A stretch of DNA of 64,000 bases from Flavobacteriales bacterium (GTDB lineage Bacteria; Bacteroidota; Bacteroidia; Flavobacteriales_F; PHOS-HE28). The translations under genes and the position numbers were made by a program. The number at the start of each line of letters is the position of its first letter. Position 1 is the first letter of the stretch. Under the pieces are notes generated by a model, which was not told where the DNA came from, searched no databases, and saw only the letters and a program-made list of their open reading frames with translations. This document shows, piece after piece, positions 16,111 through 44,055 of the stretch. The stretch lies in NCBI GenBank assembly GCA_030584065.1, contig CP129489.1:2151497-2215496 (forward strand), written 5' to 3'.

Positions 16111-17168
16111 TGCGCAAGGCCTGGATTCTCGCCGCCGCCCCCCTGCTGCTGGCGGCCTGCGGAGGCAGCGATGAGCAGACCAAGGGCGGCGGTGCCATGC
16201 CCCCCATGGCCGTGGGCGTGCACGTGCTTCAGGGCGAGCCCCTGGACGATGCCCTGGTGGCCACCGGCACCCTGCTGGCCAACGAGGAGGTGCAGCTGGT
16301 GAGCGAGCTGGCCGGCCGCATCACCCACATCGGCTTCGAGGAGGGCGGCCCGGTGAGCGCCGGGCAGGTGCTGCTGCGCATCAACGACGATGAGCTGCAG
16401 GCCCAGTTGCGCAAGGCCGAGGCCCAGCTGCGCCTGGCGCAGGAGGACGAGGCCCGCAAGCAGCAGCTGCTCGCCGTGAGCGGCATCAGCCTGGAACAGT
16501 TCGATGCCGCCCGCACCGCGGTGGCCGGCCTGCAGGCCGATGCCGACGACCTGCGCGCGCGCATCGCCAAGAGCGTGATCCGCGCGCCCTTCGGCGGCCG
16601 GGTGGGGCTGCGCAGCGTGAGCGAGGGCGGCTTCGTGGCGGCCGGAACGCCCATCGCGCGGCTGCACCAGACCGATCCCATGAAGGTGGAGTTCGCCGTG
16701 CCCGAGCGCTACGGCCGCAGCCTGGCGGCGGGCTCCGCCATCACCTTCACCCTGGAGGGCGATACGGCCACCTACACCGGCGCCGTGTACGCGGTAGACC
16801 CCAGCGTGGACGCCGCCACCCGCACGGTGAAGGTGCGTGCCCGCACGGGCAACGCCCACGGCCGCCTGATTCCCGGCGCCTTCGCCAAGGTGCAGGTGCG
16901 GCTGCAGCGCATCCCCGACGCGCTGGTGATCCCCGCCGAGGCGCTGATCCCCGACATCCAGGGCCAGAAGGTGCTGCTGATGAAGGGCGGCACCGCCGTG
17001 AGCGCCCGCGTGCAGCTGGGCCTGCGCACCGCCGAGCGCGTGCAGCTCACCAGCGGCGTGCAGCCGGGCGACTCGGTGATCGTCACCGGCCTGCTGGCCC
17101 TGCGCGACGGGGCGGCGGTGCGGCCCTTGGGCGGACAGGCGGAGAAGAAGGCGAATGCGGAGAAGTGA
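16107..17168 (+). CDS. RND efflux periplasmic adaptor (membrane fusion protein)
   Basis: A 353-aa lipoprotein adaptor linking an RND pump to TolC. The lipobox LLAAC places the lipidated Cys at residue 18. A biotinyl-lipoyl-like half (ELAGRITHIGFEEGGPVSAGQVLLRI) flanks a coiled-coil hairpin rich in Gln, Ala and Glu. A beta-barrel domain follows (VEFAVPERYGRSLAAG) and a membrane-proximal domain ends the protein (ALIPDIQGQKVLLM). It starts in ATGA overlap with the MarR gene; a second in-frame ATG follows at once. It works with the pump and TolC genes downstream. Confidence 0.95.
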   Translation: MMRKAWILAAAPLLLAACGGSDEQTKGGGAMPPMAVGVHVLQGEPLDDALVATGTLLANEEVQLVSELAGRITHIGFEEGGPVSAGQVLLRINDDELQAQLRKAEAQLRLAQEDEARKQQLLAVSGISLEQFDAARTAVAGLQADADDLRARIAKSVIRAPFGGRVGLRSVSEGGFVAAGTPIARLHQTDPMKVEFAVPERYGRSLAAGSAITFTLEGDTATYTGAVYAVDPSVDAATRTVKVRARTGNAHGRLIPGAFAKVQVRLQRIPDALVIPAEALIPDIQGQKVLLMKGGTAVSARVQLGLRTAERVQLTSGVQPGDSVIVTGLLALRDGAAVRPLGGQAEKKANAEK

Positions 17169-17312
17169 ATGGTGAACAGGTGAATGGTGAATGGTGAATG
17201 GCGAATGGGTGAATGGTGGATGGTGAATGGTGAATGGTGAATGGTGAATGGTGAATGGCGAATGGGTGGATGGTGAATAGCGAAAAGGTGAGTGGCGAAC
17301 AGTCAATGGTGA
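17165..17312 (+). repeat. Degenerate heptamer tandem repeat (GGTGAAT)n
   Basis: About 20 units of a 7-base motif, GGTGAAT with GGCGAAT, GGTGGAT and GGGTGAAT variants, starting at the adaptor stop codon. Scattered decayed units continue to about 17345. The opposite strand reads (ATTCACC)n, and one inverted remnant sits at 17404-17412. The repeat lies inside the efflux operon, between adaptor and pump genes. It is non-coding, since 7 is not a multiple of 3 and no start context is present. The rest of the gap to 17417 shows nothing else. Confidence 0.85.
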
Positions 17313-17417
17313 ACAAGGGAGATCGAATGGCGAACGATGAGCATCCAACAGGGGTCGGCGAACGGCGCGTAGTCCAAGGAGCCACCAGTCACCAACTCCC
17401 AGTCGCCATTCACCCCG

Positions 17418-17430: not shown

Positions 17431-20400
17431 ATGACCATCAGCTCCATCAGCATCAACCGGCCCGTGCTCGCCACGGTGATCTCGATCCTGATCGTGCTGT
17501 TCGGCGGCATCGGCTTCACCTTCCTCGGTGTGCGCGAGTACCCCAGCGTGGACCCGCCCATCATCACCGTCACCACCAACTACGTGGGCGCCAACGCCGA
17601 CGTGGTGGAGAGCCAGATCACCGAGGTGCTGGAGGAGAGCATCAACGGCATCGCGGGCATCCGCACCCTCACCAGCGTGAGCAGCGACGGGCGCAGCACC
17701 ATCACCGTGGAGTTCGAGCTGGACGTGGACCTGGAGGCCGCCGCCAACGACGTGCGCGACCGGGTGAGCCGCAGCGTGCGCAACCTGCCCGCCGATGTGG
17801 AGCCGCCCATCGTGGCCAAGAGCGATGCGGACAGCAACCCCATCCTGTCGATGACCATCCAGAGCGATGAGCGCAGCATGCTGGAGCTCTCGCTGATCGC
17901 CAACGACGTCTTCAAGGAGCGGCTGCAGACCATCCCCGGCGTGAGCGCCATCAACATCTGGGGCGAGAAGAAGTACAGCATGAAGCTGCTGCTCGACCCC
18001 GTGAAGATGGCCGGCCTGGGCATCACCCCGGCCGATGTGCGCGCCGCGCTCGACCGCGAGAACGTGGAGCTGCCCGCCGGCCGCATCGAGGGCTTCCGCA
18101 CCGAGCTCAGCATCCGCACCCTGGGCCGCCTCACCACCGCCGAGCAGTTCAACGACCTGATCCTGCGCGATGCCGGCGGGCGCGTCATCAAGCTCAAGGA
18201 CGTGGGCCTGGCCGAGCTGCGGCCCGAGAACGAGCGCAGCCTGCTGCGCGGCAACGGCGGCGTGCCCCAGGTGGCCGTGGCCGTCACCCCCCAGCCCGGC
18301 AGCAACTACGTGGCCATCGCCGACGAATTCCACAAGCGCGTGGCGCAGATCAAGAAGGACCTCCCCGCCGACCTGCGCTACAACATCGCCCTCGACACTA
18401 CCGTGGGCATCCGCGCCGCCATCCTGGAGGTGGAGGAGACCATCCTCATCGCCTTCGGCCTGGTGGTGCTCGTCATCTTCCTCTTCCTGCGCGACTGGCG
18501 CACCACGCTCATCCCCGTGGTGGCCATCCCCATCTCCCTCATCGGCGCCTTCTTCATCATGTACGTGGCGGGCTTCAGCATCAACATCCTCACGCTGCTC
18601 GCCATCGTGCTGGCCACCGGCATCGTGGTGGACGATGCCATCGTGGTGCTGGAGAACATCTACGCCAAGATCGAGGGCGGCATGGACCCGATGCGCGCCG
18701 GCCACGAGGGCAGCAAGGAGATCACCTTCGCCATCATCAGCACCACCATCACGCTGGCGGCGGTCTTCCTGCCCATCATCTTCCTCAGCGGGCTCACCGG
18801 CCGCCTCTTCCGCGAGTTCGGCATCGTGGTGGCCGGCTCGGTGCTCATCAGCGCGGTGGTCTCCCTCACCCTCACCCCCATGATGAGCGCGCGCATGCTG
18901 CGCCACAAGACGAAGCACAGCCGCTTCTTCGAGGTCACCGAGCGCTTCTTCAACCGGCTGGCCGCCGCCTACCAGCGCTCGCTCGCCGCCTTCCTGCGCC
19001 GCCGCCGCTGGGCCTTCGCCATCATGCTCGCCAGCGGCGCGCTCATCTGGGGCGCTGGCGCCCAGCTGCAAAGCGAGCTGGCCCCCATGGAGGACAAGAG
19101 CCGCTTCATGATCCAGAGCACCGCCCCCGAGGGCACCAGCTTCGAGCTCATGAACGACTACCTCGCGCGGATCATCGAGGTGGCGGACACCCTGCCCGAG
19201 CGCCAGGCCCTCATCAGCGTCACCGCCCCCGGCTTCGGCACCGCCAGCAGCACCAACAACGGCTTCGTGCGCGTGGCTTTGGTGCCGCCCGGCGAGCGCA
19301 GCCGCACGCAGGACGAGCTGGCCAAGGCCGTGATGGCGAAGATCCAGGGCTTCAACCTGGCCCGCAGCTTCGTGATCCAGGAGCCCACCATCGGCGGCTC
19401 GCGCTTCACCCGCCTGCCGGTGGAGTACGTGATCCAGGCGCCCGACTTCGAGCGGCTCCGCGCCGTGATCCCCGCCTTCATGGAGAAGGCCGCGCAGGAC
19501 AAGACCTTCCGCGTGGTGGACCTCAACCTCAAGTTCAACAAGCCCGAGCTGAACGTGGAGATCGACCGCGACCGCGCGCGCGCCATGGGCGTCACCATGC
19601 AGGACATCGCCGAGACCCTGCAGCTCTACTTCAGCGGCCAGCGCTACGGCTACTTCATCATGAACGGCAAGCAGTACCAGGTGATCGGCCAGGCCACGCG
19701 CGACAACCGCGACGCACCCATCGACCTCAGCAGCGCCTATGTGCGCAACGACAAGGGCGAGCTCATCCAGCTGGACAACCTGGTGCGCCTCAGCGACCGC
19801 AGCACCCCGCCGCAGCTCTTCCGCTACAACCGCTATGTGAGCGCCACCGTGAGCGCCGACCCCGCCGAGGGCTACACCATCGGCGACGGCATCGCCGCCA
19901 TGGACCGCATCAAGAAGGAGGTGCTCGACGACAGCTTCAGCACCGCCCTGGGCGGCGTGAGCAAGGAGTTCGCCGAGAGCGGCAGCAGCCTCCTCTTCGC
20001 CTTCCTCCTGGCCCTGGTGCTCATCTTCCTCATCCTCGCCGCGCAGTTCGAGAGCTTCGTGGATCCGCTGGTGGTGATGCTCACCGTGCCCCTGGCCCTG
20101 GCCGGCGCCGTGGTGAGCCTCTGGATCGGCGGCCACACGCTCAACATCTTCTCGCAGATCGGCATCATCGTGCTCGTGGGCCTGGTCACCAAGAACGGCA
20201 TCCTCATCGTGGAGTTCGCCAACCAGCGCAAGGAACAGGGCCTGCAAAAGATGGACGCCGTGGTGGACGCCGCAGGCCAGCGCTTCCGCCCCATCCTCAT
20301 GACCAGCCTGGCCACCATCCTCGGCGCGCTGCCCATCGCCCTGGGCCTGGGCGCCGCCGCCAGGAGCCGCTTGCCCATGGGCGTGGCCATCATCGGCGGG

Positions 20401-20526
20401 CTGCTGTTCGCGCTGGTGCTCACCCTCTACGTGGTGCCGGCGCTCTACAGCTACATGAGCCGCGAGCGCAGCGCCGAACCGCCGCAGGCCCCCGCAGCGG
20501 ACCACGAACACGCACCGCACGCATGA
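17431..20526 (+). CDS. RND multidrug efflux permease (AcrB/MexF type)
   Basis: A 1031-aa inner-membrane proton/drug antiporter of the hydrophobe/amphiphile efflux family. It has the expected duplicated 6+6 TM plan with two large periplasmic loops. TM4 carries the proton-relay acidic pair in GIVVDDAIVVLENIYAKIE. The end of the second membrane domain shows the typical LVTKNGILIVEFANQ and SLATILGALPIALGLG blocks. It is full length for the family. Its stop overlaps the TolC ATG by 4 bases. Substrates cannot be deduced. A mirror-image open frame of nearly the same length on the other strand is a GC-codon shadow. Confidence 0.97.
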   Translation: MTISSISINRPVLATVISILIVLFGGIGFTFLGVREYPSVDPPIITVTTNYVGANADVVESQITEVLEESINGIAGIRTLTSVSSDGRSTITVEFELDVDLEAAANDVRDRVSRSVRNLPADVEPPIVAKSDADSNPILSMTIQSDERSMLELSLIANDVFKERLQTIPGVSAINIWGEKKYSMKLLLDPVKMAGLGITPADVRAALDRENVELPAGRIEGFRTELSIRTLGRLTTAEQFNDLILRDAGGRVIKLKDVGLAELRPENERSLLRGNGGVPQVAVAVTPQPGSNYVAIADEFHKRVAQIKKDLPADLRYNIALDTTVGIRAAILEVEETILIAFGLVVLVIFLFLRDWRTTLIPVVAIPISLIGAFFIMYVAGFSINILTLLAIVLATGIVVDDAIVVLENIYAKIEGGMDPMRAGHEGSKEITFAIISTTITLAAVFLPIIFLSGLTGRLFREFGIVVAGSVLISAVVSLTLTPMMSARMLRHKTKHSRFFEVTERFFNRLAAAYQRSLAAFLRRRRWAFAIMLASGALIWGAGAQLQSELAPMEDKSRFMIQSTAPEGTSFELMNDYLARIIEVADTLPERQALISVTAPGFGTASSTNNGFVRVALVPPGERSRTQDELAKAVMAKIQGFNLARSFVIQEPTIGGSRFTRLPVEYVIQAPDFERLRAVIPAFMEKAAQDKTFRVVDLNLKFNKPELNVEIDRDRARAMGVTMQDIAETLQLYFSGQRYGYFIMNGKQYQVIGQATRDNRDAPIDLSSAYVRNDKGELIQLDNLVRLSDRSTPPQLFRYNRYVSATVSADPAEGYTIGDGIAAMDRIKKEVLDDSFSTALGGVSKEFAESGSSLLFAFLLALVLIFLILAAQFESFVDPLVVMLTVPLALAGAVVSLWIGGHTLNIFSQIGIIVLVGLVTKNGILIVEFANQRKEQGLQKMDAVVDAAGQRFRPILMTSLATILGALPIALGLGAAARSRLPMGVAIIGGLLFALVLTLYVVPALYSYMSRERSAEPPQAPAADHEHAPHA

Positions 20527-24087: not shown

Positions 24088-24103
24088 TATGCCATATGGC
24101 ATA
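24088..24103. promoter_or_regulatory. Palindrome 1, TATGCCATATGGCATA
   Basis: A perfect 16-bp palindrome in an otherwise very GC-rich region, about 100 bp upstream of the minus-strand gene starting at 23986. Its 14-bp core is repeated exactly 63 bp away. A perfect dyad of this size is the usual form of a dimeric regulator site. Confidence 0.55.
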
Positions 24104-24151: not shown

Positions 24152-24165
24152 ATGCCATATGGCAT
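24152..24165. promoter_or_regulatory. Palindrome 2, ATGCCATATGGCAT
   Basis: An exact copy of the 14-bp core of the first palindrome. The centre-to-centre distance is 63 bp, about six helical turns, so proteins bound to both would face the same side of the DNA. The candidate binder is unknown; the XRE-type regulator nearby is one possibility. Confidence 0.55.
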
Positions 24166-24259: not shown

Positions 24260-24655
24260 ATCACTACGGGGCGAGTCCCCGATCACCACGGGGCAAGTCC
24301 CCGATCACTACGGGATGAGTACCCGAGAACTACGGGATGAGTACCCCATCACTACGGGGTGAGTACCCGATCACTAAGGGGTGAGTAGCCCATCACTACG
24401 GGATGAGTACCCGATCACTACGGGATGAGTAGCCCATCACTACGGGGTGAGTACCCGATCACTACGGGGTGAGTACCCGACCACTACGGGGTGAGTACCC
24501 GATCACTACGGGATGAGTAGCCCATCACTACGGGGTGAGTACCCGACCACTACGGGGTGAGTACCCGATCACTACGGGATGAGTACCCGATCACTACGGG
24601 GTGAGTACCTAATCACCACGGGATGAGTAGCCGATCACTACGGGGTGAGTACCCC
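24260..24655 (+). repeat. 22-bp tandem array, 18 units
   Basis: Exactly 18 head-to-tail units of 22 bp with no insertion or deletion (18 x 22 = 396 bp). The consensus is ATCACTACGGG(G/A)TGAGTA, then (C/G)CC(G/C). Substitutions are few and sit mainly at unit positions 12, 19 and 22. Each unit holds short dyads: TCAC and GTGA six bases apart, and CCCG and CGGG seven apart across the unit border. The array is non-coding in all frames. No spacers are present, so it is not CRISPR. The flanks (23987-24259 and 24656-24746) hold only the two palindromes. Confidence 0.95.
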
Positions 24656-25262: not shown

Positions 25263-26204
25263 GTGCCAGCAAGCCCTCTGCCCGACTACCTGCGCTTGAA
25301 CCGAGCCAATGGGCAGGCACCGCACAAGCCCATCCTGCTCTTGGCCGTATTACGGGCATTCGATGAGGGGCTGATCATCGAGAACAGGATACGTCCGGAA
25401 CCGGAGCTGATCAACCTGTTCAATGGCTACTGGTCCGCACTTGTGCACGACCCCAGGTCCCAATGCCGCTTCTACCTGCCATTCTTCTACTTGCGCAATG
25501 AGCGATCCGGTCTGTGGACGCTTCACACCCTGTCCGGCTTCGAGCACGGGCTCACCCGTGGGAAGGACATCAAGAGCCTAGGCGCCCTGCTCAGCTTTGA
25601 AGCCTACGCCACCTTAAGGCCCGATGTGTTCAACCGATGGCGCGTTGCCACGCATCGCGCCGCCGACCGGCTCCTCATCATGGCCAAGTACTTCCCCGGC
25701 CAACCGTTACCGCTGGAACTGCCCGACCAACTGCGTGACATCGAGAAGCAGATCGTCTCCGATCCGCCCGAGGTCTACGTGGCCCGCCAACTGCAGCGGC
25801 TCCAATCCGAAGAGGAAGAAGACCAGCTGCTGCGCAGCGCAGCCTTCAAGCGGAAGATACCCGAGCTCTACGGCTATCAATGCGCCATCACGGGTCTTCG
25901 TGTGAGTACCACCCGTGGCCCAAGCTTGATTGACGCCTGTCACATCGTGCCATGGGCCGATTCGTTCGATGACACGATCAGCAACGGCATTGCACTCTGT
26001 CCCAATATGCACCGTGCGTTCGACCGCGGGCTTATCAGTATCGGTTCCGACTACCGCGTCTTGGTGAACAAGGACCTTCAGGAAGCCGAGAGCACCCATG
26101 CCATCCGGCCGTTCGAGGGAAAGCTGCTCGACCTACCCAAGGAGGCGGTGCACCGCCCCGCTCCTGAGAACTTGACAAGGCATAGGGAGCGATGGGGGTT
26201 CTGA
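25263..26204 (+). CDS. HNH endonuclease, putative modification-dependent restriction enzyme
   Basis: A 313-aa protein. The C-terminal HNH nuclease (about 200-275) has CAITGLRV, LIDACHIVPWADS, SNGIALCPNMHRAFD and GLISIG, containing the His-Asn-His core as in the HNH_2 family. The N-terminal 120 residues (HKPILLLAVLRAFDEGL, FNGYWSAL, FYLPFFYLRNE, GLW) resemble the domain that recognises phosphorothioated or methylated DNA in ScoMcrA-type enzymes; this is my reading of the pattern. It therefore probably cuts modified foreign DNA. It starts with GTG, supported by the promoter 4 nt upstream. It opens the defence island. Confidence 0.85.
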   Translation: MPASPLPDYLRLNRANGQAPHKPILLLAVLRAFDEGLIIENRIRPEPELINLFNGYWSALVHDPRSQCRFYLPFFYLRNERSGLWTLHTLSGFEHGLTRGKDIKSLGALLSFEAYATLRPDVFNRWRVATHRAADRLLIMAKYFPGQPLPLELPDQLRDIEKQIVSDPPEVYVARQLQRLQSEEEEDQLLRSAAFKRKIPELYGYQCAITGLRVSTTRGPSLIDACHIVPWADSFDDTISNGIALCPNMHRAFDRGLISIGSDYRVLVNKDLQEAESTHAIRPFEGKLLDLPKEAVHRPAPENLTRHRERWGF

Positions 26205-26215
26205 GGCTTAAGGTG

Positions 26216-27049
26216 TCAGGACCTTAAGACAGTAGCACGGTAGCTGATTGCGTCCAGCTTCAACTTGTCCTCAAGGCTGCCAGCGAGCATGTACAACCGA
26301 GGTTGCTGGTACAGCTCAAAGACGCGATAGAGGCGCGCCGCATCGGGGTGTTCACGCGCGTGTTCCAGTTCATTCCGCGTAATCATGAACGGCGTTCCGA
26401 TCTTGAAGGGAGTCGACTTCACCTCAATGTGCAGTTCACGCTCGTTGGTATCGTAGGAGAGGATGTCATACCCCAGCCCGTCACCACGGGTGATGGAAAC
26501 GTGTTCAACCGCATCAGCTAGTTCGTGCCGCCCCTCCGCTTTCAGGCGTGTCCGCTCAAAATGCAGCACCCATTGTTCACCGGCCAATCCGATCTCCTTG
26601 CAGTTCGCTTCCTTCTCGGCGATCTCCTCCTGTGAGATGATCGTGCCACCTCGCTTGGGTCCTTTTGTGAAACCCACAGGTGGATCGCATACCGTCGCAG
26701 CATCGAAGAGGTCCGTCGTGTACGGAACGACGAGCTTCTTGCGATACCGCTGCAAGATGACCAGCGCCTCCGGGTGGTCCCGCACATACTGAAGGGTGAC
26801 CGGTTCAAGCGATCGCTGGATGTTCACCAGGGGAGGGAGTCCTCTCAGGTAGGGATGGTCATGCAGCACCAGCACGGCACTGATGTTCTGCATCTTCTTT
26901 TCGTAGCCACCCGGCACACGCCCCCATTGCCGCGCTAATGAACGATAGACCTCGGCCTTGTTGAGCCGTTGTCCCGCTAGTTCACGCTCCATGAGCATGA
27001 AGTAGGCGCTCAACGTAGCCTCAACCTCTGGCTGTTCCCATCCTTTCAT
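26216..27049 (-). CDS. DUF3883-domain protein (nuclease-like), defence-associated
   Basis: A 277-aa cytoplasmic protein. The C-terminal DUF3883 part has the pattern GLGYDILSYDTNERELHIEVKS: an Asp, then Glu-x-Lys, as in PD-(D/E)XK nuclease folds. The N-terminal 110 residues (VYRSLARQWGRVPGGYEKKM, NISAVL) look like a separate helical domain with the motif often seen in HNH-associated proteins. DUF3883 occurs widely in restriction and anti-phage loci. It is convergent with the HNH gene, 11 bp apart, and divergent from hsdM. Base composition is more AT-rich than the housekeeping genes, hinting at transfer. Confidence 0.8.
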   Translation of the reverse strand: MKGWEQPEVEATLSAYFMLMERELAGQRLNKAEVYRSLARQWGRVPGGYEKKMQNISAVLVLHDHPYLRGLPPLVNIQRSLEPVTLQYVRDHPEALVILQRYRKKLVVPYTTDLFDAATVCDPPVGFTKGPKRGGTIISQEEIAEKEANCKEIGLAGEQWVLHFERTRLKAEGRHELADAVEHVSITRGDGLGYDILSYDTNERELHIEVKSTPFKIGTPFMITRNELEHAREHPDAARLYRVFELYQQPRLYMLAGSLEDKLKLDAISYRATVLRS

Positions 27050-27550
27050 TTGCCATCCCCTGGCCTTTCCGCCCCAAGATCGTCATCCTAGACCAATCAA
27101 CGACAACACGCATTGTGCTACCCGCCTCAGTGGGTTCGACACGGGCCGGCCTATCGGTGGAGTGCAAGCGCGCTCCTGAGCTTGGCAGGCTGCGGCCAAC
27201 GATATGCTCACGATGCAGATACAGCGCTTCGCCTATCTGATGTGGAAATGCCGGAGTGCGGAGGATGCGAATCGCTTGGCCGTTCATTGCGAGCGGAACT
27301 CGGTTACCCCCCGCAGGGTCTCCTTCTTCGGGACCCTGCGGCGCTGTATAAGGCCGCAGGGGCTCTTCGTTCCTCAGGAGACCCTGCGGAGGTTGAAGTG
27401 CCAAAAGCCATTGAGCGTAATGGCCGCGCCACGATTCACCATCAGCTAGTGCAGCCAATGGGCTGCTCAGCTTTGCACGGCAGAACCATTCCAGCTCGGC
27501 TTCGGGTAGTCACCTCCGGTTGAGGACCTGTTGAGCCGGCATCCCCTGCC
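27050..27550. other. Divergent intergenic region before hsdM
   Basis: About 500 bp with no supportable gene. It holds one double-hairpin palindromic element (27311-27389) and the hsdM -7 candidate at its right end. Short frames across the palindrome are repeat artefacts. Confidence 0.6.
27311..27389 (+). repeat. Interspersed double-hairpin palindrome, copy 1
   Basis: 79 bp made of two hairpins. The first pairs CCGCAGGGTCTCC with GGGACCCTGCGG across a 6-base loop. The second pairs CCGCAGGGGCTC with GGAGACCCTGCGG. The first and last arms are exact reverse complements, so the whole element can also fold as one long stem. This copy has one changed arm base run (GGGGCTC). It is flanked on the left by GGTTACCCC, as in copy 2. 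It sits upstream of hsdM. Confidence 0.9.
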
Positions 27551-27558
27551 TATTTTGC
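27551..27558 (+). promoter_or_regulatory. -7-like box TATTTTGC of hsdM
   Basis: A TAnnTTGC-type box ending 10 nt before the hsdM ATG. It is the same variant as at the HNH and hsdR genes but with a longer gap, which predicts a leader of only a few bases. Confidence 0.4.
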
Positions 27559-27568
27559 CCCTCCTACC

Positions 27569-29647
27569 ATGTCCACCGACACCCACAAGCAGCTCGCCAA
27601 CTTCATCTGGAGCATCTGCAACCTGCTGCGCGGCCCGTACAAGCGCAACGAGTACCGCAAGGTGATCCTGCCCCTCACCGTGCTCAAGCGCTTCGACAGC
27701 ATCTTGGCGCCCACCAAGGCCAGGGTGCTGGCCGAGCACGCGAAGCACCAGGGCAAGAGCGAGACCGTGCAGTTCAGCCTGCTCACCACTGTGAGCGGCG
27801 TGAAGTTCTACAACACCAGCCCGCTCGATTTCGGCAAGCTGCTGGACGACCCAAGCAACGTGGCCAGCAGCCTCACCGGCTACATCAACGGCTTCAGCCC
27901 CAACGTGCGGGCCATCTTCGAGAAGTTCAAGATCGGCGAGCAGGTGGCCTACATGGCCGAGAAGGACCTGCTCTACCGCGTGGTGAAGGCCTTCCAGAGC
28001 GAGGCGCTGGACCTGCGGCCCGAGAAGGTGGACAACGTGCAGATGGGCTATGTCTTCGAGGAGCTGATCCGCATCGGTGCGGAACAGAGCAACGAGGAGG
28101 CCGGGGACCACTTCACCCCGCGCGAGGTGATCCAGCTGATGGTGAACCTGCTGCTGAGCGACGAGACCGACCTGGCCCGAAGCCACGTGGTGAAGACCAT
28201 CTACGACCCCACCTGCGGCACCGGCGGCATGCTCAGCACCGCCGAACAATACCTGCGCAACCTGAACAGCAAGGCCAACCCGCAGCTCTTCGGGCAGGAC
28301 TTCAACGACGAGTCGTGGGCCGTGTGCAAGAGCGACATGCTGATCAAGGGCGAGAACGCCGACAACATCAAGCTGGGCGATACGCTGAAGGACGACCAGC
28401 ACGCCGGCGCGCAGTTCGATTACATGCTGGCCAACCCGCCCTTCGGCGTGGAGTGGAAGCAGCAGCAGAGGACCGTGGAGGATGAGCACCTGAAGCTGGG
28501 CTACAAGGGCCGCTTCGGCGCCGGGCTGCCCCGCATCAACGATGGGGCCTTCCTCTTCCTGCAGCACATGCTGAGCAAGATGCGGCCTGTGGACAAGGGC
28601 GGCAGCCGCATCGCCATCGTGTTCAACGGCAGCCCGCTCTTCACGGGCGATGCGGGCAGCGGCGAAAGCGAGATCCGCCGCTGGATCATTGAGAACGACT
28701 GGCTGGAAGGCATCGTGGCGCTGCCGGACCAGCTCTTCTACAACACCGGCATCAGCACCTACATCTGGGTGCTCACCAACCGCAAGGCGAAGGAGCGCAA
28801 GGGCCGGGTGCAGCTGCTGGACGCGCGGCCCTTCTTTGTAAAAATGCGCAAAAGCCTTGGCAACAAGCGCAACCGCATCGGCGACGGCACCGAGAACACG
28901 CCGGACCAGATCGCCACCATCACCAAGCTCTACGGGGAGTTCCGCGATGGGGCCACGCACTCCTTCACGGTGGATGGCCAAGCGCTGGAGCGGGTGGTGA
29001 GCAAGGTGTTCCCCAACGCACACTTCGGCTACCGCAAGATCGCCGTGGAGCGGCCGCTGCAACTGAACTTCCAGGCCAGCCCCGAGCGCATCGCACGGCT
29101 GGACGAGGTGAAGGCCTTCGCGAACCTGGCCACGAGCAAGAAGGTGAAGAACGATGCCGCCCGCCTGCAGGAGATCGAGGCCGGGCGCCAGCGCCAGCAG
29201 GCTATCAAGGCGATGCTGGAGGGCATGGGCGATGCGCACTACAAGGACCGCAAGGCCTTCCTTGCCGATCTGAAGAAGGCGGCCAAAGCAGCGGGCCTCA
29301 CCTTGGATGCTGCGGAAACGAAGGCCATCCTCACCGCCCTGGGCGAGCGCGACCCCCGGGCCGCCGTGTGCACCGATGCGAAGGGACGCCCTGAGCCCGA
29401 CAGCGAGCTGCGCGATACCGAGAGCGTGCCGCTGAGCGAGCCCATTGAGGCCTACTTCCAGCGCGAGGTGCTGCCCCATGTGCCCACGGCCTGGGTGGAT
29501 GCCGACAAGACCAAGGTGGGCTACGAGATCCCGCTGACGCGTGAGTTCTATGTGTACACGCCGCCCCGCCCGCTGGAGGCCATCGAGGCCGAGATCGAGG
29601 GGCTGGAGAAGGAGATCGTGGAGATGCTGAAAGGGATCACCGCGTGA
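27569..29647 (+). CDS. hsdM: Type I restriction-modification methyltransferase subunit HsdM
   Basis: A 692-aa N6-adenine DNA methyltransferase, the modification subunit of a type I system. The HsdM N-terminal domain (LANFIWSICNLLRGPYKRNE) precedes the catalytic domain with SAM motif I (DPTCGTGGM, about 213-221) and catalytic motif IV (NPPF, about 290). The long C-terminal part ends in a coiled coil (LEAIEAEIEGLEKEIVEML). It works with HsdS and HsdR encoded 3.5 and 7.2 kb downstream. The last 77 bp before the final codon are duplicated at 31875-31951, beyond an inserted gene pair. Confidence 0.97.
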   Translation: MSTDTHKQLANFIWSICNLLRGPYKRNEYRKVILPLTVLKRFDSILAPTKARVLAEHAKHQGKSETVQFSLLTTVSGVKFYNTSPLDFGKLLDDPSNVASSLTGYINGFSPNVRAIFEKFKIGEQVAYMAEKDLLYRVVKAFQSEALDLRPEKVDNVQMGYVFEELIRIGAEQSNEEAGDHFTPREVIQLMVNLLLSDETDLARSHVVKTIYDPTCGTGGMLSTAEQYLRNLNSKANPQLFGQDFNDESWAVCKSDMLIKGENADNIKLGDTLKDDQHAGAQFDYMLANPPFGVEWKQQQRTVEDEHLKLGYKGRFGAGLPRINDGAFLFLQHMLSKMRPVDKGGSRIAIVFNGSPLFTGDAGSGESEIRRWIIENDWLEGIVALPDQLFYNTGISTYIWVLTNRKAKERKGRVQLLDARPFFVKMRKSLGNKRNRIGDGTENTPDQIATITKLYGEFRDGATHSFTVDGQALERVVSKVFPNAHFGYRKIAVERPLQLNFQASPERIARLDEVKAFANLATSKKVKNDAARLQEIEAGRQRQQAIKAMLEGMGDAHYKDRKAFLADLKKAAKAAGLTLDAAETKAILTALGERDPRAAVCTDAKGRPEPDSELRDTESVPLSEPIEAYFQREVLPHVPTAWVDADKTKVGYEIPLTREFYVYTPPRPLEAIEAEIEGLEKEIVEMLKGITA
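29564..29640 (+). repeat. Direct repeat A, 3' end of hsdM
   Basis: 77 bp inside the hsdM coding end, repeated in the same orientation at 31875-31951 with only two mismatches. The two copies are 2311 bp apart and bracket the AlbA_2-ParA gene pair. Confidence 0.95.
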
Positions 29648-29649
29648 AC

Positions 29650-29657
29650 GAACTTTG
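29650..29657 (+). promoter_or_regulatory. -7-like box GAACTTTG before the AlbA_2 gene
   Basis: Matches TAnnTTTG in seven of eight informative or free positions (first T replaced by G). It ends 4 nt before the ATG at 29662. The inserted cassette would thus bring its own promoter. Confidence 0.4.
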
Positions 29658-29661
29658 AGGC

Positions 29662-30855
29662 ATGTTGACCGACGAGCAACTGGTCGAGCTCTGGAAGGGT
29701 GGCGAATCGGAATTCGTGGAGTTCAAACCCTCCACCTCCGACAAGGCCGACATCTACCACGATATCTGTGCGTTCAGCAACGACGTGAACGACAGCGGAA
29801 GGACCGGAGTGATCTTCATCGGGCTGAATGATGACGGAACGGTAACCGGCATCAACATCACTGACCGGCTGATCAGGGAACTTGCGCTGATCCGTATGCA
29901 GCCGCATGTGCAACCCATGCCCGACATGGCGGTGAACAAGCATGTGCTGAACGGAGCTGAATTGGCGGTGATCCAAGTGCGCCCATCTGATCTGGCACCG
30001 GTGAAGTATGCCGGGAGAACGTGCATACGGGTGGGTACGGTGCGCCATACCGCCAGTCCGGAACAAGATGATCGCTTGAGCGAACGCAGACGGGCCAAGA
30101 ACCTGCCGTTCGATGTGCAGCCCGCATCGGGGGTCACACTGGCGGATCTGGACCTGCAGTACTTTGAACAGGTCTATCTGCCCATGGCTTTCGCGCCTGA
30201 CGTGATAGAAGCGAACAAGCGAACGATCGAGCAGAAGCTGGCATCGCTCCGGTTCGTTGTTGGCCCTTCGGATCCACAGCCTACTGTGCTGGGCGCCTTG
30301 GTGCTCGGGCTGGACCCCACCTTTGCTGTGCCCGGGGCCCGCATCGAGCTGTTGCGCATCGATGGGTCCAGGCTTTCCGACCCGGTCGTGGCCTCGCTGA
30401 AGATCACCGGCCGGTTGCAAGATCTGTTGCAACGCCTGGATGAAGTGCTCAAATTGAATATCCGTACGAGCGTGGACATCCGTTCCGGTGCGCGCGAAGT
30501 GAGCAAGCCGGACTATCCGCTGGTCGCCTTGCAGCAGCTTACGCGTAATGCGGTCATGCACCGCAACTACCGGGGCACACACGCACCGATCCGGATCCTC
30601 TGGTTCGCTGACCGGGTGGAGATCCACAGCCCGGGTGGCCCGTTCGGTCGGGTGAACGTGGCGAACTATGGCCAACCCGGCGTAACCGACTACCGCAACC
30701 CGAGCCTGGCGGATGCCATGGTCACTTTGGGCTTTGCACGGGCCTACGGGCTCGGCCTGGAAACTGCCCGTGATGCGTTGGCCCAGAACGGGAATGCCCC
30801 CATGGAAGTGACCGCTACGCCGGACAACATCCTCACCATTCTTCAACCAGCATGA
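29662..30855 (+). CDS. AlbA_2/Schlafen-like ATP-binding protein
   Basis: A 397-aa cytoplasmic protein. An AlbA_2 (divergent AAA_4, Schlafen-like) domain covers residues 1-130 or so (ESEFVEFKPSTSDKADIYHD, GVIFIGLNDDGTVTGI). The C-terminal part is an HATPase_c_4-type region (QQLTRNAVMHRNYRG, DRVEIHSPGGPFG, GLGLETARDAL). In this family the N-domain can bind or cleave nucleic acid, and members are common in defence islands. The stop overlaps the ParA gene start by 4 bases, so the two form a unit. That unit is inserted between hsdM and its downstream genes. Confidence 0.85.
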   Translation: MLTDEQLVELWKGGESEFVEFKPSTSDKADIYHDICAFSNDVNDSGRTGVIFIGLNDDGTVTGINITDRLIRELALIRMQPHVQPMPDMAVNKHVLNGAELAVIQVRPSDLAPVKYAGRTCIRVGTVRHTASPEQDDRLSERRRAKNLPFDVQPASGVTLADLDLQYFEQVYLPMAFAPDVIEANKRTIEQKLASLRFVVGPSDPQPTVLGALVLGLDPTFAVPGARIELLRIDGSRLSDPVVASLKITGRLQDLLQRLDEVLKLNIRTSVDIRSGAREVSKPDYPLVALQQLTRNAVMHRNYRGTHAPIRILWFADRVEIHSPGGPFGRVNVANYGQPGVTDYRNPSLADAMVTLGFARAYGLGLETARDALAQNGNAPMEVTATPDNILTILQPA

Positions 30856-31853
30856 GCGTACCCGTCATCACCTTCTTCAACAACAAGGGCGGTGTGGGCA
30901 AAACCTCGCTGGTGTACCATGTGGCCTGGATGCTCAACAACCTGGGCGTGCGCACACTGGCCGTGGACCTGGATCCGCAGGCCAACCTCACGGCTGCGTT
31001 CATGACGGATGAGGTGTTGGAGGAGATGTGGGCCGACCCACCATCCAACAGTACCATTTACGGGTGCATTGAACCACTCTCCAGCGGTACGGCCGATGTG
31101 CAGACACCCGAATTGACAGAGATCGCCGAGAACCTCTGGCTGCTCAATGGCGATATGCGGTTGAGTGCTTTGGAGGATGAGCTCAGCAGCCAATGGCCCG
31201 ATTGCATGGACAGGAAGGTGCGTGCCTTTCGGGTGGTCAGCGCGATCTCGCGCGTGATCCAAGCCGGCGCCAAGGATGTCCGCGCAGAGGTCATCGTGGC
31301 TGATGTCGGCCCTTACCTGGGTGCCTTGAACCGGGCCGCCATGGTGGCCACCGACCATGTAGTGGTGCCGCTGGCGGCCGACCTGTTCAGCATGAAAGGG
31401 CTCGAGAACCTGGGACGCACCCTTCGTGCGTGGCGCGAGCAATGGCAGGAGCGCTTGCCACGCAATCCGGAGGCGAGCATCCCCTTGCCACAAGGGAACA
31501 TGCAGCCCGCAGGCTATGTGTTGATGCAGCACGCCGTACGCTTGGACAGGCCCGTGCAAGCCTACCAGAAGTGGGTGGACAAGGCGCCGGGGATCTATGC
31601 ACGGTATGTGCTGGGTACTCCGGAACCCGTTCCGGGAAACGACCCGAACCGGATCGACATGATCAAGCATTACCGCAGCTTGATGCCCATGGCACAGGAA
31701 GCGCGCAAGCCCATGTTCCACCTGAAGCCTGCGGATGGGGCCATCGGGGGCCATGTGGCCGCTGTGCAAGCCTGCTACCGGGACTTCGATCGGCTTACCC
31801 GGGAGATCCTGAAACGCACCGGGCTTCCGGAGCCGGCCATCCCCGCCTTGTGA
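30852..31853 (+). CDS. ParA/MinD-family ATPase
   Basis: A 333-aa deviant-Walker ATPase: KGGVGKT at about residues 12-18, the Walker A' region LAVDLDPQANLTAA and the switch region VIVADVGPYLGALNRAAM. The C-terminal 130 residues or so are an extension beyond the core fold. No ParB gene or parS-like cluster is near, so chromosome or plasmid partition is unlikely. The tight coupling (ATGA) to the AlbA_2 protein suggests it energises or positions that protein. The pairing is unfamiliar to me. Confidence 0.88.
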   Translation: MSVPVITFFNNKGGVGKTSLVYHVAWMLNNLGVRTLAVDLDPQANLTAAFMTDEVLEEMWADPPSNSTIYGCIEPLSSGTADVQTPELTEIAENLWLLNGDMRLSALEDELSSQWPDCMDRKVRAFRVVSAISRVIQAGAKDVRAEVIVADVGPYLGALNRAAMVATDHVVVPLAADLFSMKGLENLGRTLRAWREQWQERLPRNPEASIPLPQGNMQPAGYVLMQHAVRLDRPVQAYQKWVDKAPGIYARYVLGTPEPVPGNDPNRIDMIKHYRSLMPMAQEARKPMFHLKPADGAIGGHVAAVQACYRDFDRLTREILKRTGLPEPAIPAL

Positions 31854-43844: not shown

Positions 43845-43880
43845 AGGGAACGTAGGCCTGAGGACTCAGGTCTAGCCCCC

Positions 43881-44055
43881 CCGCAGGGTCTCCGTCTTCG
43901 GGACCCTGCGGCGCTTAACCCCCCGCAGGGTCTCCGCTTCGGGACCCTGCGGTTCTGCACAAGGCCGCAGGGTCCCTTCGTTCCTCAGGAGACCCTGCGG
44001 AGGTTGAGGGTCTCCGTCTTCGGGACCCTGCGGCGCTACCCCCCGCAGGGTCTTT
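43881..44055 (+). repeat. Clustered interspersed palindromes, copy 4
   Basis: A compound array. A single hairpin occupies 43881-43911. A complete double hairpin covers about 43923-44000 (loops GCTTC and TTCGTTCCTCA). A third hairpin lacking its first bases follows at 44008-44032. A lone arm (CCGCAGGGTCTTT) starts at 44043. Units are separated by short C-rich spacers such as TTAACCCC. The rest of the 43845-44199 gap shows no gene. The tandem arrangement implies local duplication or insertion of one element beside another. Confidence 0.9.

Follow-up and report, generated by a model that had tools for sequence, protein, structure and literature searches.

In this study, we observed that a tandem array of 18 contiguous 22-bp units in a wastewater flavobacterium is, with high confidence, one member of a class-wide family of arrays that share their architecture and are linked to genes of a fibronectin type III (FN3) protein family. 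Almost all of these arrays have a period of 21 or 22 bases although their sequences differ, which points to a type of DNA control element not recognised before. This class-wide element is apparently undescribed so far; a keyword search of the open-access literature returned no prior description of such arrays, and an unindexed description is possible. About three quarters of the examined members of this widespread, uncharacterised Bacteroidia family carry a long non-coding array of conserved geometry and non-conserved sequence. Searches by repeat sequence miss elements of this type, whose conserved property is spacing. The features of the module in the window (the whole stretch of 64,000 nucleotides that was analysed) are listed in Table 1. 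On the minus strand, the XRE gene is followed by the array, the leader and the FN3 gene.

Table 1. Features of the array module, with positions in the window.
Feature	Position	Strand	Remarks
FN3-family gene, 206 aa	23366..23986	-	N-terminal helices and C-terminal fibronectin type III domain; companion family of the arrays
Leader, array to FN3 start codon	23987..24259	-	273 bp; median 242 bp over 58 loci
Proximal palindrome (likely operator) TATGCCATATGGCATA	24088..24103	.	starts at -117 from the FN3 start codon
Distal palindrome (likely operator) ATGCCATATGGCAT	24152..24165	.	starts at -179 from the FN3 start codon
Tandem array, 18 units x 22 bp	24260..24655	.	unit GTAGTGATCGGGTACTCACCCC in the direction of the FN3 gene
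XRE/HTH_3 regulator gene, 95 aa	24747..25034	-	Pfam HTH_31 and HTH_3; orientation of the FN3 gene; directly upstream of the array; gene order shared by relatives

Read unit by unit, the 396 bases of the window array are free of indels, and TRF reported the array at 24260-24654 with a period of 22, 18.0 copies, 87% matches, 0% indels and a score of 587. Each reading frame is interrupted, and the best frame is open across only 25% of the array. These results confirm the preliminary description of this DNA, which had noted an indel-free, non-coding array of 18 units of 22 bp. In an ungapped self-alignment of the upstream region, the best score was 268, compared to 13 at most in shuffled upstream regions. 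Sequence variation at unit positions 12 (G/A) and 19 (C/G) was confirmed as well (A12 in seven units, G19 in four, both jointly in three), but the variants form a mosaic instead of the two clean unit types that had been suggested. Likewise, the short dyads noted in each unit exist (CGGG..CCCG and GGGT..ACCC), but the symmetry of the window unit is not above that of its own shuffles (z -1.1), and an excess is seen only over the whole set of arrays. The unit sequence has no second occurrence in the complete, 3.9-Mb genome of this strain, and the array DNA gave zero matches in 57 relatives, plasmids and phages. Three single exact 18-mer matches in IMG/VR were taken as chance. The earlier proposal that absence from all relatives, together with a lack of binding and transcript, would mark the array as a neutral satellite is misleading: the sequence is absent from the 57 relatives, and the architecture is present almost everywhere with other sequence.

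For a genus-centred set, upstream regions of 80 FN3 homologues were extracted and 58 arrays were kept. At most of these loci, the region from about -750 to -150 contains a tandem array whose period is 21, 42 or 63, or 22, 44 or 66, and self-alignment scores reach up to 400 (13 at most in shuffles). In the genome of the window strain, all four FN3 homologues (L042, L121, L075 and L111) have an array, and in 864 kb of the same genome (the window and 40 spaced stretches amounting to 800 kb) a short period combined with a length above 300 bp is seen in only two arrays, each located at an FN3 gene. A class-wide profile search detected the FN3 family in 50 of 295 genomes from many families, and upstream regions from those genomes again carry arrays. 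Pooled over 136 FN3 loci, a strong upstream tandem array is present at 102, and in 101 of these the period equals k x 20-22 bp; values of 21 or 42 prevail, with 22 or 44 in the clade of the window gene. Of the 34 weaker loci, 29 still have their peak within this range of periods (28% would be expected; p 7e-12). At most periods the mean score lies flat at about 6; it rises only at 21/42/63/84 (53-75) and 22/44/66/88 (18-26). No signal was found at 31-32 or 52-53 bp in the 136 pooled loci; thus, the unit corresponds to two helical turns, not to one or three. The two-turn pattern is also present in other families of the class.

The constant association is that of array and FN3 gene, and the relevant partner is this gene rather than the defence island that the preliminary description had named as a neighbour. 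The XRE gene and the defence-type genes beyond 25263 are as it described them. The 206-aa FN3 protein matches Pfam fn3 with an E value of 9.5e-5, just under the cut-off, and its AlphaFold model (mean pLDDT 93.6) consists of N-terminal helices and an FN3 domain. The matches listed by Foldseek for this model are FN3 domains; for the N-terminal helices, only FN3-domain proteins are among the matches listed. FN3 homologues are multicopy in the genus, with up to 19 matches per genome, and none was found in viral contigs, plasmids or phages. The C-terminus is Ala-Ala in 56 of the 79 FN3-family proteins of one alignment (A1) and resembles a ClpXP-type degron.

The sequence of the arrays is private to each locus. 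Consensus units of different loci show background similarity (mean about 11 of 20, null 11.3) unless their FN3 proteins are more than approximately 70% identical. At the two closest paralogues in the genome of the window strain, the arrays are nearly equal in span (-677..-270 and -671..-272) and their units are unrelated. Indels are rare: when gaps were allowed, 54 arrays yielded 16,808 matches, 2,887 substitutions and only 13 indel bases, and 46 of the 54 are free of indels. In Flavobacteriales bacterium UBA2426, which has an FN3 protein 99% identical to that of the window, unit and array edges are the same (locus L132), but at least 27 units are visible instead of 18; this count is approximate, as it comes from a short-read MAG with an N gap within the array. 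A second array is largely collinear and differs little between the two strains. The idea of a hypervariable satellite was therefore well founded, since the unit varies between species and the copy number differs within one.

Next to the question of sequence stands that of the level at which the arrays act. A coding heptapeptide repeat, prompted by open frames in 21-bp arrays, was ruled out by a mod-3 test and by the periods 20, 22, 61 and 62 bp, which allow no constant frame per unit; substitutions were biased in only 2 of 42 arrays of the genus set and 0 of 31 of the class set, i.e., there is no codon phase. The 22-bp arrays rotate the frame and are mostly interrupted. An RNA hairpin, one of the options in the preliminary description, was dropped for want of strand asymmetry: the fold energies of sense and antisense RNA do not differ (26 of 53, p 0.63, genus set; 18 of 38, p 0.47, class set), and Rfam gave no match for the array. 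The fold z of the arrays has a median of -0.5. At the DNA level, circular dyad symmetry of the units, computed over about 90 arrays, is above that of shuffles (z +1.5, p 4.5e-9, genus-centred set; z +2.1, p 6e-9, class set), and the palindromic cores CATG and GATC are two- to threefold enriched compared to the flanks (z about 4.7). Conservation of the dyad arms exceeds that of the remaining unit positions only marginally (0.105 vs 0.139, p 0.08). Units were also examined for a substructure of heptamers (21 = 3 x 7) and for repeats of half a unit; both were rejected, with no clear similarity within units at offsets 7, 10 and 11. A Bacteroidetes -33/-7 promoter was not found on either side of the array.

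The leader between array and FN3 gene contains two palindromes with centres 63 bp apart. The sequence ATATGCCATATGGCAT has four perfect matches in the genome, namely in the window pair and in the pair before the FN3 paralogue at 1976596, which has the same palindromes, an unrelated array and no XRE gene nearby. In another genome (G007), a palindrome of other sequence is present in exactly two copies, 62 bp apart and equally distant from its FN3 gene as in the window, and several loci of the clade of the window gene have a palindrome that begins near -117. This fixed geometry makes it likely that the palindromes are operators of the XRE regulator. The regulator upstream of the array is an XRE protein in most loci of the 22-bp clade and a LuxR-type response regulator in a 21-bp subclade; beyond the genus, most loci have no conserved regulator beside the array. 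The array unit and the distal palindrome are unrelated in sequence, and the XRE protein more likely binds the palindrome pair than the array, on which it probably does not act. In the leader of locus L089, at about -126 from the FN3 start, a perfect inverted repeat with 18-bp arms consists of two copies of CCCCCGGTATACCGGGGG.

Our favoured explanation, to which we give about an even chance, is that the array is a DNA platform in phase with the helix, on which a dimeric protein that co-evolves with it binds, and that the FN3 gene is controlled in this way. The two-turn spacing, the suppressed indels, the dyads and the lack of an RNA or coding signal together point to protein sites on the same face. 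Of the protein-binding array proposed in the preliminary description, the sites on one face are thus still the best reading; the adjacent XRE protein as their binder is not. The window array would belong to a family of cis-acting elements that accompany FN3-family genes of Bacteroidia and act at the level of double-stranded DNA. Such an element would comprise about 6-28 dyad-like units of exactly two helical turns (21 bp; 22 bp in the clade of the window gene) and would present binding sites on one face of the helix to a dimeric protein, which would bind along its length and control the FN3 gene some 240 bp downstream. As the sequence is private even among the copies in one genome, the binder would be either locus-specific or indifferent to sequence. 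Potentially, the site sequence drifts freely together with its private binder, unequal exchange homogenises the units and alters their number, and selection acts on the spacing. We infer that a dimeric, locus-specific protein, either the FN3 protein or a linked regulator, binds the array and that this binding sets FN3 expression. The FN3 protein is a candidate on two grounds: it accompanies the arrays throughout, and it is basic (family median pI 9.1). More tentatively, and with somewhat less than even probability, the arrays might be two-turn dyad satellites under selection for length, with a sequence private to each gene copy that co-evolves with a self-recognising partner, possibly the FN3 protein, so that each paralogue would have an orthogonal DNA address. 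If a private binder exists, the paralogues provide orthogonal pairs of protein and DNA site that evolved in nature and in which the co-evolution of proteins and their sites can be studied; if not, the arrays are a striking bacterial satellite with a locked period.

Counting against this platform model are the unremarkable symmetry of the window unit, the marginal difference in conservation of the dyad arms and the many loci outside the genus without a conserved regulator at the array; in addition, tandem turnover might hold the period without selection. The arrays would then be neutral minisatellites: unequal exchange or slippage would homogenise the sequence upstream of FN3 genes, the period would be an inherited accident and the array functionless. 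This agrees with unit sequences that are unconstrained between species and alike only among close homologues, with a copy number that differs within a species, and with locus L123, in which the array has decayed while the putative operator and the XRE gene remain. However, the period is held at 21 or 22 across many families despite full replacement of the sequence, indels are few, dyads are enriched, and the arrays are strictly tied to one gene family with none comparable elsewhere in the 864 kb, so that we consider neutrality unlikely. Direct binding of the units by the neighbouring regulator (the XRE protein of the 22-bp clade or the LuxR-type protein of the 21-bp subclade), in the manner of an iteron or operator, is rather improbable. 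The conserved order of regulator, array and FN3 gene in a single orientation and the dyads in the units would fit such binding, as would the regulator type that tracks the period, but phylogeny confounds the latter link. It is the leader palindromes that resemble operators, and their perfect copies are found only as pairs before two paralogues; the private pair of G007 keeps nearly the same spacing, and the units are unlike the palindromes. Many arrays lack a linked regulator, and since the paralogue at 1976596 combines shared operators with a different array and no XRE gene, a linked regulator cannot account for array binding at every locus.

We assign little probability to a transcribed array that acts as a repeat RNA, be it as a hairpin array, as a sponge or, in the manner of a type III antitoxin, as the RNA partner of the FN3 protein. 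The tandem array just upstream of a gene and in its orientation recalls ToxIN, and some units fold well (L080, L126 and L130); the absence of better folding in the sense direction, the median fold z and the lack of an Rfam match argue against this, the FN3 fold is not that of a ribonuclease, and the two-turn period would be left unexplained. Similarly doubtful is an expression rheostat or contingency locus, in which changes in copy number would alter FN3 expression in clonal populations and steps of whole turns would keep the helical phase upstream of the promoter. It would account for the additional units between unchanged edges in UBA2426 and for a multigene family with private arrays, but the second array barely differs between the two strains, the count comes from a gapped short-read MAG, and at 400 bp the phase should matter little.

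In general, plasmid iterons and centromeres such as the 20-bp parC repeats of pSK41 consist of tandem units of about two turns, which place sites on the same face beside the gene of a DNA-binding protein. The repeats of the window and of the family are likewise about two turns long and in fixed phase. However, the window array is chromosomal, its neighbours are XRE and FN3 genes without a Rep or Par gene in the module, and 6 kb separate it from the ParA-like gene at 30852; moreover, array and FN3 family are absent from the plasmid records searched, and the units of the many homologues in a genome are mutually unrelated and not conserved among them. Like bacterial minisatellites or VNTRs in promoters, the arrays are tandem, non-coding, homogenised and (by the approximate UBA2426 count) variable in copy number within a species, but they are tied class-wide to one gene family and are almost indel-free, with dyads and a period fixed at 21/22 while the sequence is free. 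In eukaryotic satellites, e.g., the alpha satellite of about 171 bp, monomer length is kept while the sequence turns over fast. The FN3 arrays share this trait, but are bacterial, have 21/22-bp units, lie upstream of genes and span hundreds of bp. Like the type III toxin-antitoxin system ToxIN, FN3 loci have a tandem array of private sequence upstream of a gene, but the product, with its helices and FN3 domain, lacks the ToxN/TenpN ribonuclease fold, RNA structure gives no signal, the units are shorter and many more in number, and about 240 bp separate array and gene. Unlike an XRE operator array, the window unit does not share the sequence of the palindromes, the putative XRE operators. Unlike CRISPR, the units are contiguous without unique spacers, and no cas gene is among the neighbours scanned.

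The module is adjoined by a defence-type island (25263-31853) that encodes an HNH nuclease, a NOV_C protein (PADLOC PDC-S36), HsdM, an AlbA_2 protein and a ParA-like ATPase. The HNH nuclease resembles phosphorothioate-dependent restriction enzymes, and a close homologue neighbours an FN3/array locus (L106) in another genome. Other repeats were also detected. A degenerate 7-bp array (GTGAATG, about 20 copies, with indels) at 17148-17313, just upstream of an RND-type efflux gene (17431-20526), is of a different kind from the 22-bp array. A 42-bp repeat at 43879-43974 contains the stem CGCAGGGTC...GACCCTGCG; a similar stem in the 61-bp tandem repeat of L033/L049 (G024) suggests a dispersed repeat family in the genus. 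Elsewhere in the genome of the window strain, a short 21-bp array of 4.6 copies (L182:7670-7766) is made of 7-bp blocks, and a 229-bp tandem repeat of 4.9 copies (L071:2252-3381) lies just downstream of the FN3 paralogue at 1976596.
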